From: Bacteroidota bacterium
Lineage (GTDB): Bacteria; Bacteroidota; Ignavibacteria; UBA10030
Assembly (NCBI GenBank): GCA_015661185.1
Contig: JACVXU010000004.1
Span: 1 to 38,916, forward strand
Length of the DNA stretch: 38,916 bases
Reading direction: 5' to 3'
Positions 23,346 to 27,930 of the stretch are shown piece after piece; position 1 is the stretch's first letter, and every line of letters starts with the position of its first letter. A program made the position numbers and the translations under genes. Below the pieces are notes generated by a model. It had not been told where the DNA came from. It searched no databases and was given only the letters and a program-made list of their open reading frames with translations.

Positions 23346-24111
23346 AGCGTTCCGCTTCCAGTCCTGCTTTTTCTTTTAAATGTCTGACTTCCTGTCGTGT
23401 GAGACTTCTCCATCTTCCGCGTGCCAGACCCTGCGTCGTCAGACCGGCGAAAGAAACCCGCTCCAGCGCGTCCACCTCATATCCGAGCGCTTCAACCATT
23501 CTCCTGACTTCCCGATTCCGTCCCTCGATCAACGAGATATAGATCTGCGTGCGTTTCGTACCGGGGATAATTCCAACCTGATGCGGTTTCGCCATTCCAT
23601 CTTCGAGACGGACGCCCCTCTTCAACCTGCTGAAGTGTTCGTCGGCAATCCCGCGCTCAAGCTTCACCCGATAGATTCGCTCGATCTCGTGTTTCGGGTG
23701 GATCAACGCGTTGGCCAGTTCCCCGTCATTCGTCAGAAGAAGAACGCCGGTCGTATTCCGGTCGAGCCTCCCCACAGGATAGATCCGATCGCGCATTTTC
23801 ACATAGTCCATCACCGTGACACGACCTCGTTCGTCACTCACAGTTGTAATACAATCTTTGGGCTTGTTCAAGAGGAGGTAGTGGACCTTCCGCTGAAGGG
23901 CGACAATTTGTCCTTGGACGGTCACGCGGTCGGAAAACGGATCGACCTTCACTCCAAGCTCGCGGACGATCTTGCCATTAACTTTGACGACACCGGAGAG
24001 AATCAGTTCATCATTCTTGCGGCGAGAGCCAACCCCTGCTAGAGCGAGAAACCTATTCAACCGAATAGCTTCTTGATGAACCCTTGAATCTTCTCTTTCC
24101 ACGAATTCCAC
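23326..24111 (-). CDS. rluB: RluB/RsuA-family pseudouridine synthase
   Basis: From a GTG at 24111 the product is 261 residues. An S4 RNA-binding domain (about 17-65, RLNRFLALAGVGSRR) precedes the pseudouridine synthase domain, with catalytic D117 in VGRLDRNTTG and the C-terminal blocks EGRNREVRRM and VSFAGLTTQGL. RluB modifies 23S rRNA; RsuA modifies 16S. The position after scpA-scpB is the usual place of rluB. The start is uncertain: a TTG at 24060, overlapping the scpB stop as TTGA, would begin exactly at the S4 domain, while the GTG start overlaps scpB by 55 bp. Confidence 0.92.
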   Translation of the reverse strand: MEFVEREDSRVHQEAIRLNRFLALAGVGSRRKNDELILSGVVKVNGKIVRELGVKVDPFSDRVTVQGQIVALQRKVHYLLLNKPKDCITTVSDERGRVTVMDYVKMRDRIYPVGRLDRNTTGVLLLTNDGELANALIHPKHEIERIYRVKLERGIADEHFSRLKRGVRLEDGMAKPHQVGIIPGTKRTQIYISLIEGRNREVRRMVEALGYEVDALERVSFAGLTTQGLARGRWRSLTRQEVRHLKEKAGLEAERYAISPK

Positions 24112-25475
24112 CGGGTCTTTGGTTGGGGACGAGTCTGCTTGTCCGGTGCATCCTCGGATGTTGCATCACGCCCGGAGTACGTAACGCCCTGAGAGTCTTC
24201 CTCAACGGTTGGGGAAACAGATTGCGGGATTAGATCGATTGTGCTATCAACCTCTTCAATTTGCCCGGCCGTGGAGGTTCCTTCGACGGACGATTCTCCG
24301 ACTGGAAGAATTTCACCTTGCCCGGAAATCCCGACCTTCTGTTCCTCGATCGGTCGAATACTTTCCAACTTGTCCTGAACTGCAATGTCCGTTCCCCGAC
24401 CTTCAGTCATAGGGCTGGTTCCAATCTCTTGGTCACCCTCAACAGGCTGAGTTAGTCCTATGTACTTGGGTAGTTCTGCGGATGAAATCTGCTCAGTTTC
24501 ACCTATTTCTCCGTTCAAAGCCGAGCTTTCAGCTATGAAGCTCTTCTCAACTGCGGGAACATTCTGCTGCTCCATCTGAGCCGGCTCTCCAATAATCGAA
24601 GCTTGATCTTCAAGTATACTGGTCGAACCTATTCCAGGAACATCGGTTACTGGCTGCTCTTCCTTCGTTGCTTCAGGCTGTACAGCTTCAGGTTCCTCGC
24701 TCGGACGGACCTTGATTTCGCGTGTGCGCTTCTTCTGTGTAATCTTGACGTCGTCATCGAGGCCTGCTTTCCGTTTCGGAATATGCGGCAGACGAGACTT
24801 GAATTCTTCTTCCGCCTTCAATCCCTCCATGTCTTGTTGCGCTTCCAGCATCCGCCGTTCGGTCTCGAATTGACTGTCTCCCAAGATCTCCTGGATCTCC
24901 CGTGGCCTCGGGAGGTCATTCAGGTCGTTCAGTCCAAAGTGCTTCAGGAACTCTTTCGACGTGCCGTAGAGCAGCGGGCGCCCAACCGTAGGTGCGCGTC
25001 CGACGATCGTGGCAAGGTCCTTTTCGAGGAGTGTCTTGATCACATAGTCACAGTTTACCCCTCGAATCGACTCGAGCTCGGGTTTCGTGATCGGCTGCTT
25101 ATAAGCGATGATGGCGAGAGTCTCGATGGACGATTGGGACAATTTTCTTCGGGACTGTTCCTTGTAAAGCTTTCCAAGCCATTCTGCATAGGCCGGTAAG
25201 GTGGCGAATTGATATCCGCCTGCAATGTGTATGATACGATACGACCGGACTGAAACGGCGTATTCTCCATTCAACTCTTCGACGACGCGCTCAATCTCTT
25301 CGTAGGCGATCTTGCGTGGCTCGGTTCCTTCAGAGCCCTGATCCTCGTAGAGCGCCTGGATCTGTCGAACGGAGAGCGGCTCCCGGGCACCAAAGATCAA
25401 CGCCTCGACAAGGCACTTCACCGTCGTCGGGACCAGCAGGAGTAATGGCCGGGTTGTCGTATTCGCGTCACTCAT
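24057..25475 (-). CDS. scpB: Segregation and condensation protein B with long acidic tail
   Basis: The 472-residue protein is over twice the usual ScpB length (about 180-220). Residues 18-195 are a normal ScpB with two winged-helix domains (VKCLVEALIFGAREPLS, then KLSQSSIETLAIIAYKQPIT and GRPLLYGTSKEFL). ScpB binds ScpA and the SMC ATPase to organise the chromosome. After a charged coiled segment (about 198-250), residues 255-453 are Glu/Pro/Ser/Thr/Gln-rich and probably disordered. The extreme C-terminus, RWNSWKEKIQGFIKKLFG, looks like a basic amphipathic helix. scpA ends 6 bp upstream and rluB overlaps downstream. Confidence 0.95.
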   Translation of the reverse strand: MSDANTTTRPLLLLVPTTVKCLVEALIFGAREPLSVRQIQALYEDQGSEGTEPRKIAYEEIERVVEELNGEYAVSVRSYRIIHIAGGYQFATLPAYAEWLGKLYKEQSRRKLSQSSIETLAIIAYKQPITKPELESIRGVNCDYVIKTLLEKDLATIVGRAPTVGRPLLYGTSKEFLKHFGLNDLNDLPRPREIQEILGDSQFETERRMLEAQQDMEGLKAEEEFKSRLPHIPKRKAGLDDDVKITQKKRTREIKVRPSEEPEAVQPEATKEEQPVTDVPGIGSTSILEDQASIIGEPAQMEQQNVPAVEKSFIAESSALNGEIGETEQISSAELPKYIGLTQPVEGDQEIGTSPMTEGRGTDIAVQDKLESIRPIEEQKVGISGQGEILPVGESSVEGTSTAGQIEEVDSTIDLIPQSVSPTVEEDSQGVTYSGRDATSEDAPDKQTRPQPKTRWNSWKEKIQGFIKKLFG

Positions 25476-25481
25476 GGATGT

Positions 25482-26198
25482 CTACACCACATTCCGCATA
25501 ATGGAAACTTCGCCAAACGCTTCCGCCTGACGCACCACAATTTGCTTCGAACGTATCATTTCGAGCAATGCAATAAAGGTAACGACGACCCGGATCTTCT
25601 CCACCATATCCTTCACCAGCTCGTAGAATGTGGCCTCGGACCGACGTGAGAAAAAGTCGAGAATGTAGTCGATCTGCTCCTCGAGCGTCACGTTCAGCCG
25701 AGTGATTTCGTGGACAAATTTCTTCGGCATTCGTTCGATCGCGAACTTGAACGAGGAAATCAAATCGAAGAGGGAGACGTCCCTGAGAGACTGGTCTTCC
25801 TCTTCTTCCGTCGTCACACGTGGATCGGCCTCATAGTATCCACGGTAAAACACCTTCCGCTGTGCATCTTCCTGCATGGACATGCCGACCGCCACCTCTT
25901 TGAAGCGTTTGTACTCGACAAGACGCTTGATCAGATTTGCGCGCGGGTCCAGTTCTTCTTCCTCTCCTGGTTCAGGCGGCAACAGCATTCGTACTTTGAT
26001 CTGCATCAACTCAGCCGCCATCACGAGAAACTCCCCGGCCACCTCCAGATCGAGAGTCTCCATGTAGTGGACGTAGTCAAGAAACTCCTTCGTGATCCGC
26101 GAGATGGGGATGTTGTAAATGTCGAGCTCATCCCGCTTGATGAAAAACAAGAGCAGATCTAGCGGCCCTTCGAATTCATGGAGTTTGATTGTGTACAT
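25482..26198 (-). CDS. scpA: Segregation and condensation protein A
   Basis: The 238-residue kleisin subunit of the SMC-ScpAB complex begins MYTIKLHEFEGPLDLLLFFI, the signature ScpA start, with the N-terminal SMC-neck-binding part (about 1-80). A variable acidic middle follows (about 75-140), and the C-terminal winged helix (about 170-238: FLALLEMIR-type motif FIALLEMIRSKQIVV) binds the SMC head. Length is normal. It lies between trpS (69 bp upstream) and scpB (6 bp downstream), a frequent bacterial order. Confidence 0.97.
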   Translation of the reverse strand: MYTIKLHEFEGPLDLLLFFIKRDELDIYNIPISRITKEFLDYVHYMETLDLEVAGEFLVMAAELMQIKVRMLLPPEPGEEEELDPRANLIKRLVEYKRFKEVAVGMSMQEDAQRKVFYRGYYEADPRVTTEEEEDQSLRDVSLFDLISSFKFAIERMPKKFVHEITRLNVTLEEQIDYILDFFSRRSEATFYELVKDMVEKIRVVVTFIALLEMIRSKQIVVRQAEAFGEVSIMRNVV

Positions 26199-26267: not shown

Positions 26268-27260
26268 TCAACCCATGTTCATCGCAAGATGAACTTCGTC
26301 CATCGTTTGACGCGCGATGGCTCTTGCCTTCTCTTCCCCATCGTGCAGAGTCGCCGTCACCTCATCGAGATGGGATTCAAAATATGCCCGTCTCTCACGG
26401 TGAGACGCGAGCGCGTCTGCGATTCTGTCTGCACAACGCAACTTGCAATCGACACATCCCAACGCCCCGCTCTCACATCCCGATCGTATCTCGCCGACTT
26501 CCGCTGGACTGAACTTGTTGTGATATGCGAATACCAGACAAATATCAGGATGCCCCGGATCGCCTCGCCGTACTTTCTGAGGGTCCGTCACTGCGCCTTT
26601 CAGCTTCTTCTTGATCGCGTCGGGCGCATCCGAGAGAAGCACGGTGTTTCCTATCGACTTACTCATGCGACGCCCGTCCAGACCCGGAAGCCGGGCAAAT
26701 CTTGTCAGCTTCCCCTCGGGTTCCGGAAAGACTGCCTTCGTCGGAGAGTATTGCGCATTGAAACGTCGAGCGATCTCTCTCGTGATCTCAATATGCGGTA
26801 ACTGATCTTCGCCGACCGGGACCACATCGCCTTTGTACAGCAGGATATCTGCAGCCTGCAACACCGGGTACCCCAGGTGGCCGTATACAACTGTTTCCAT
26901 CTCCAGGTCCCGCACCTGTTCTTTGAGCGTCGGATTCCGCTCAAGCCTGGAGGTCGTGATCAACATTGAAAACACCAGATGAAGCTCGGCGTGCTCTTTT
27001 ACCTGCGATTGTCGGAACATCGGGCTTACGGTTGGATCGAGCCCGGCGGACAACCAATCAATAAGCATCTCGACTGAGTTTTGATAGATCTCTGATGAAT
27101 CAGGATTCGTCGTGAGCGCGTGATAATCCGCAATAAGATGGTAGTTCTGGTATTCACCCTGGAGCGACACCCAGTTCTCCAACGCTCCAACAAGATGTCC
27201 AAGATGCAGTTTCCCTGTCGGGCGCATGCCGCTCAGAATGACTTTTCTTTTCTGGCTCAA
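26268..27260 (-). CDS. trpS: Tryptophanyl-tRNA synthetase with probable [4Fe-4S] site
   Basis: The 330-residue class I synthetase charges tRNA-Trp. The HIGH-type motif is TGKLHLGH (15-22) and the KMSKS loop is RMSKS (198-202). Cysteines C241, C262, C269 and C272 are spaced x20-x6-x2. This closely resembles the C-x22-C-x6-C-x2-C site that binds a [4Fe-4S] cluster in Thermotoga maritima TrpRS near the anticodon-binding region; a fifth Cys is at 276. The start is a TTG at 27260. An AAAGGAG element lies 13 nt upstream, with an ATG-TAG start-stop pair between it and the TTG. scpA follows 69 bp downstream. Confidence 0.96.
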   Translation of the reverse strand: MSQKRKVILSGMRPTGKLHLGHLVGALENWVSLQGEYQNYHLIADYHALTTNPDSSEIYQNSVEMLIDWLSAGLDPTVSPMFRQSQVKEHAELHLVFSMLITTSRLERNPTLKEQVRDLEMETVVYGHLGYPVLQAADILLYKGDVVPVGEDQLPHIEITREIARRFNAQYSPTKAVFPEPEGKLTRFARLPGLDGRRMSKSIGNTVLLSDAPDAIKKKLKGAVTDPQKVRRGDPGHPDICLVFAYHNKFSPAEVGEIRSGCESGALGCVDCKLRCADRIADALASHRERRAYFESHLDEVTATLHDGEEKARAIARQTMDEVHLAMNMG

Positions 27261-27405: not shown

Positions 27406-27930
27406 TCAATTCATGAAGAGATACGGCTTCCAGCGATCGTCCACGCTCCCCACGACATCGCGAATGAACATGACGTGATTCGGTCGTATCGGTTTTCTCA
27501 ACAACGACATCTGTGCTTCGCCCGGCAAGCGGTCCCCTTTCTTGTTGTTGCAGCGTACGCATGCCGCTACAAGGTTCTCCCAGGAATCCAGACCGCCTTT
27601 TGCTCTCGCCACAACGTGATCAACTGTCAACGGCACATCCCCCCCCCGGCCACAATATTGACAACGATGCCCATCGCGCCGTAAGATGTTCTTTCTCGAA
27701 AGCACAATCTTTTTGAAGGGGATACGAACGTAGATAGAGAGGCGAACGATGCTGGGAAACGGCATCGTCATAGAAACGGAATGTAGGTACCTACCATGAG
27801 AGGCTTCGATCAACTCAGCTTTCCCAAGAAACAGAAGGATGACCGCCTTTTTGACGTTGCAAACGCTCAAGGGCTCGTAGTTATGATTCAAAACGAGCAC
27901 TTTCCGGTTTATTTTTCCGTTGGAACGCAC
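27406..27930 (-). CDS. HNH endonuclease family protein
   Basis: The 174-residue protein opens with KVLVLNHNYEPLSVCNVKKA, the conserved N-terminus of a widespread chromosomal HNH family. The HNH domain covers about 85-140: CQYC, the catalytic LTVDHVVARAKGG (His in DHV) and CVRCNNKKGD, giving four zinc Cys plus the HNH residues. Its cellular role is not known. It is a lone gene here, without a methylase or toxin partner, so restriction is unlikely. The start is a GTG at 27930; the strongest ribosome-binding-like site (AAGGAGGTG at about 27960-27968) is some 30 nt upstream, too far for normal use. A strong promoter lies at 28032-28060. Confidence 0.9.
   Translation of the reverse strand: MRSNGKINRKVLVLNHNYEPLSVCNVKKAVILLFLGKAELIEASHGRYLHSVSMTMPFPSIVRLSIYVRIPFKKIVLSRKNILRRDGHRCQYCGRGGDVPLTVDHVVARAKGGLDSWENLVAACVRCNNKKGDRLPGEAQMSLLRKPIRPNHVMFIRDVVGSVDDRWKPYLFMN

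Follow-up and report, generated by a model that had tools for sequence, protein, structure and literature searches.

A Thermotoga-type [4Fe-4S] site predicted in the single tryptophanyl-tRNA synthetase of an Ignavibacteria-like bacterium

The tryptophanyl-tRNA synthetase (TrpRS) of Thermotoga maritima (TM0492; PDB entry 2g36) carries a [4Fe-4S] cluster in its anticodon-binding region, the iron of which was confirmed by X-ray fluorescence (Han et al. 2010, PMC2954223). One sulfur of this cluster is contacted by Arg224, a published docking model puts Cys266 close to the anticodon, and either stability or anticodon recognition was proposed as the role of the cluster (PMC2954223). Homologues with an iron-sulfur site were already reported in 2010, with a first spacing of x21-24, mostly from thermophiles and other extremophiles, with anaerobes also being stressed (PMC2954223). 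A [4Fe-4S] cluster has likewise been predicted on four cysteines of the archaeal-type TrpRS-A2 of DPANN, which were compared there to C-x22-C-x6-C-x2-C, although TrpRS-A2 differs from the enzyme described here in being a member of the archaeal/eukaryotic TrpRS clade (PMC5370408). No later functional study of the TrpRS cluster was found in the open literature, a search that most subscription papers fall outside. By both sequence and tree, the nearest TrpRS sequences lacking the motif are Deinococcus radiodurans TrpRS II (1yi8) and Chlamydia trachomatis TrpRS (6ncr); all four cysteines found in the protein described here are replaced in these two enzymes, which have no cluster, and the cluster is therefore dispensable for catalysis in general.

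The window analyzed here is a stretch of 38,916 nucleotides (contig JACVXU010000004.1 of assembly GCA_015661185.1), in which the trpS gene and its neighbors are arranged as follows.

24057..25475, minus strand: scpB, extended at its C terminus by a long extra region
25482..26198, minus strand: scpA, segregation/condensation protein A, next downstream of trpS
26268..27260, minus strand: trpS, tryptophanyl-tRNA synthetase, 330 amino acids with a TTG start, matching TIGR00233 and, as the best PDB match, 2g36
27406..27930, minus strand: HNH-type nuclease-like gene, conserved upstream neighbor of trpS

The trpS product scored 284.9 bits against the trpS model TIGR00233, for which the family cut-off is 176.75, and is thus a member of the bacterial TrpRS family. 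It contains HIGH-like and KMSKS-like signatures (HLGH at residues 19-22 and RMSKS at 198-202). This gene is the single TrpRS gene in the whole genome of this Ignavibacteria-like bacterium; the only other PF00579 match was rejected as a second TrpRS because its trpS-model score was just 32 bits, against a cut-off of 177; it presumably encodes TyrRS. In related loci the order aroC, HNH gene, trpS, scpA, scpB and pseudouridine synthase recurs. The HNH gene is the immediate upstream neighbor of trpS in each of the 25 Ignavibacteria-like and Fidelibacterota loci read (L033-L057), and scpA adjoins trpS wherever the flank reaches that far. The order from the HNH gene to scpB is also found in the Fidelibacterota. 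The extension of ScpB is of low complexity and runs for ~280 residues past the ScpB domain.

Translation of the minus strand places five cysteines in the TrpRS, at residues 241, 262, 269, 272, and 276, with none elsewhere in the 330 amino acids. The first four follow the pattern C241-x20-C262-x6-C269-x2-C272, as had been read in the preliminary description, which mentioned neither the strand nor Cys276. This pattern has a C-x6-C-x2-C core with a fourth cysteine within the range of ~20-24 residues upstream. Because RMSKS begins at residue 198, the cysteines sit past the KMSKS loop, in the anticodon-binding domain. The codons concerned, together with that of a basic residue considered below, are located as follows, with counterparts in T. 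maritima assigned by alignment.

26574..26576, minus strand: Lys229, counterpart of T. maritima Arg224
26538..26540, minus strand: Cys241, predicted ligand 1, T. maritima Cys236
26475..26477, minus strand: Cys262, predicted ligand 2, T. maritima Cys259
26454..26456, minus strand: Cys269, predicted ligand 3, T. maritima Cys266
26445..26447, minus strand: Cys272, predicted ligand 4, T. maritima Cys269
26433..26435, minus strand: Cys276, fifth conserved cysteine, four residues past the last predicted ligand

Chance clustering of these residues was rejected both by their conservation (see below) and by simulation: when 5 cysteines were placed at random in 330 residues, all five fell within 36 residues in 0.05% of cases, and C-x6-C-x2-C arose in 0.06%.

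A search of the protein against every chain in the PDB gave 2g36 as the best match by sequence (1.6e-89, 303 bits), followed by Deinococcus TrpRS II and other TrpRS sequences at 242 bits or less. Each of the four cysteines has its own counterpart in 2g36 (Cys236, Cys259, Cys266, and Cys269, respectively), which bears out the earlier statements that the last two spacings equal those of T. maritima and that the motif occupies the same place after the KMSKS loop. The two enzymes are thus alike in fold, in the position of the four cysteines within the anticodon-binding domain, in the x6 and x2 spacings, and in a basic residue facing the cluster, at 49% aligned identity. They differ in that lysine (Lys229) stands here for Arg224, in the extra Cys276, which is absent from T. 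maritima TrpRS, and in the first spacing, which is x22 there and x20 here because two residues between the first two cysteines are deleted. This last difference speaks against a T. maritima-type assignment, x20 being outside the published x21-24 range. An AlphaFold model, built from 26 sequences, had a mean pLDDT of 83, with block means of 88-95 over residues 241-280, and superposed on 2g36 with a Z-score of 36.8 (1.9 Å over 314 residues, 49% identity). That Z-score was tied with those of the cluster-free Chlamydia and Deinococcus relatives, and so the structural match supports the fold and not the metal.

Four-cysteine sites in aminoacyl-tRNA synthetases often bind zinc, and a structural zinc site in place of [4Fe-4S] would fit the same residues, as metals are indistinguishable by sequence alone; the MetRS encoded in the same window also has a zinc-knuckle-like set of CxxC pairs. 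Against zinc, the homologous cysteines of 2g36 hold a [4Fe-4S] cluster in which the iron has been verified experimentally (PMC2954223), and a lysine or arginine is conserved at the cluster-contacting position. A zinc site is therefore considered unlikely.

To place the motif among relatives, 121 distinct TrpRS sequences were read from the same order, class, and phylum, of which 118 were complete over the motif. All four cysteines were present in 73 of these sequences, none in 35, and one in 10; no sequence among the 118 had two or three. Identity to the query was 57% or more for sequences bearing the motif and ~43% at most for those without it, a gap which indicates that two types of TrpRS are being compared. 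All four cysteines are kept in each of the 73 distinct subfamily relatives, which come from genomes of the Bacteroidota group and the Fidelibacterota. The first spacing was x20 in 71 of the 73 and x21 in the remaining 2, both from genomes encoding the FMO protein of green sulfur bacteria. Of 41 TrpRS sequences read from the phylum to which a Sulfobacillus genome belongs (the 20 nearest, 20 drawn for the most part from low on the list, and that of Sulfobacillus itself), 36 had the complete motif, with a first spacing of x19 or x20 and at identities down to 43%. By these counts, x20 is usual and the x22 of T. maritima is the exception.

At the position of Lys229, lysine was found in 73 of 73 motif-bearing relatives from the Bacteroidota group and the Fidelibacterota, and arginine in all rows with the motif from the Sulfobacillus phylum. 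Cys276 was kept in 63 of the 73 and was absent from the TrpRS sequences read from the Sulfobacillus phylum. Beyond the four predicted ligands and residue 276, the alignment of relatives contained no conserved cysteine column. It is conceivable that the cysteines are mere vestiges of an ancestral state and hold no metal in this lineage, given that the Deinococcus and Chlamydia members of the subfamily do not have them and the fold can thus do without; however, retention of exactly four cysteines in all 73 sequences down to 57% identity, together with the all-or-none distribution, makes this reading highly implausible.

In a tree of 100 sequences, the presence of the motif was explained by one change of state. 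The query groups with T. maritima TrpRS (support of 85 in a quick tree in which T. maritima is a long branch), and the Deinococcus and Chlamydia sequences fall just outside the motif-bearing clade; with that support and with Deinococcus, Chlamydia, and T. maritima all on long branches, gain of the motif is not separable from its loss. Within one class, and even within single families (f39 and f41), some genomes have the Fe-S type of TrpRS and others the cluster-free type. No genome with both types was seen in the class-level survey, which suggests whole-gene replacement. In one relative, bin fen_1287 (L057 3001-3741), trpS is present only in broken pieces with an internal stop, as it is in G029:C70; the fen_1287 fragments stem from an error of assembly or from a gene that is truly broken.

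Metagenome bins of Ignavibacteria or Bacteroidota make up the named relatives (74-96% identity), and the titles of their records point to fens, lake (sediment), and groundwater. As far as these habitats tell, the query is apparently not from a hyperthermophile, in contrast to TM0492. The genome encodes a heme-copper oxidase, as well as SufB/SufD-type assembly genes. Among 100 genomes of the class, a heme-copper oxidase was found in 62 of 65 with the query-like TrpRS versus 32 of 32 with the other type, the motif being taken as present at an identity of at least 60% where the TrpRS was not read directly. An association between the query-like TrpRS and absence of the oxidase was accordingly rejected (Fisher p=0.55), in a comparison with little power because the marker is near-universal. 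With 62 of 65 genomes encoding the oxidase and with moderate habitats, the Fe-S site extends beyond thermophiles and strict anaerobes, and the predicted cluster-type TrpRS is compatible with oxygen respiration and moderate habitats.

In a rival reading, which takes up the link to redox state or iron supply suggested in the preliminary description, the cluster would be a sensor, and its loss through oxygen, NO, or iron starvation would cut tryptophan charging and tie translation to redox or iron state. This TrpRS is the only one in the cell, the organism may meet oxygen given its oxidase, and Cys276 adjoins the predicted ligands as a fifth conserved cysteine in the group of the query. On the other side stand the missing association with oxidase absence, the neighborhood of trpS, where the unit comprises aroC, the HNH gene, and scpAB but nothing related to redox or iron, and the proposal of stability or anticodon recognition by Han et al. 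(PMC2954223). A sensory role is thus regarded as improbable, and there is just as slight a chance that the cluster and Cys276 together form an oxygen- or iron-sensitive switch on the sole tryptophan-charging enzyme of oxidase-encoding bacteria; the cluster is more likely to serve structure or anticodon binding than to form a link to redox state or iron supply.

A predicted Thermotoga-type [4Fe-4S] site is well supported by what was directly observed, namely the motif, its conservation, its all-or-none distribution, the homology to a solved Fe-S TrpRS, and the suf genes. The enzyme very probably belongs to the [4Fe-4S] subfamily of TrpRS, with a cluster that is loaded by Suf, is most likely structural, and aids the binding of tRNA-Trp without a part in electron transfer. 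In such a protein, the four cysteines of the anticodon-binding domain would hold the cluster provided by the Suf machinery of the cell, and the cluster would carry no electrons but would pin the loop beside the anticodon-recognition helix, which may in turn improve tRNA-Trp binding.

The motif is a general feature of this subfamily of TrpRS, and such homologues have been on record since 2010 (PMC2954223); the site is therefore taken to be real but neither remarkable nor new, and the modest addition made here is the breadth of Fe-S TrpRS. Many oxidase-encoding bacteria from moderate habitats have the predicted Fe-S site in their one TrpRS, whereas the picture in 2010 was mostly one of thermophiles and other extremophiles. 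The presence of the site in the only TrpRS of the cell means that a basic enzyme of translation in these bacteria is probably dependent on iron-sulfur assembly, and its presence in bacteria from moderate habitats makes the role of the cluster easier to test.
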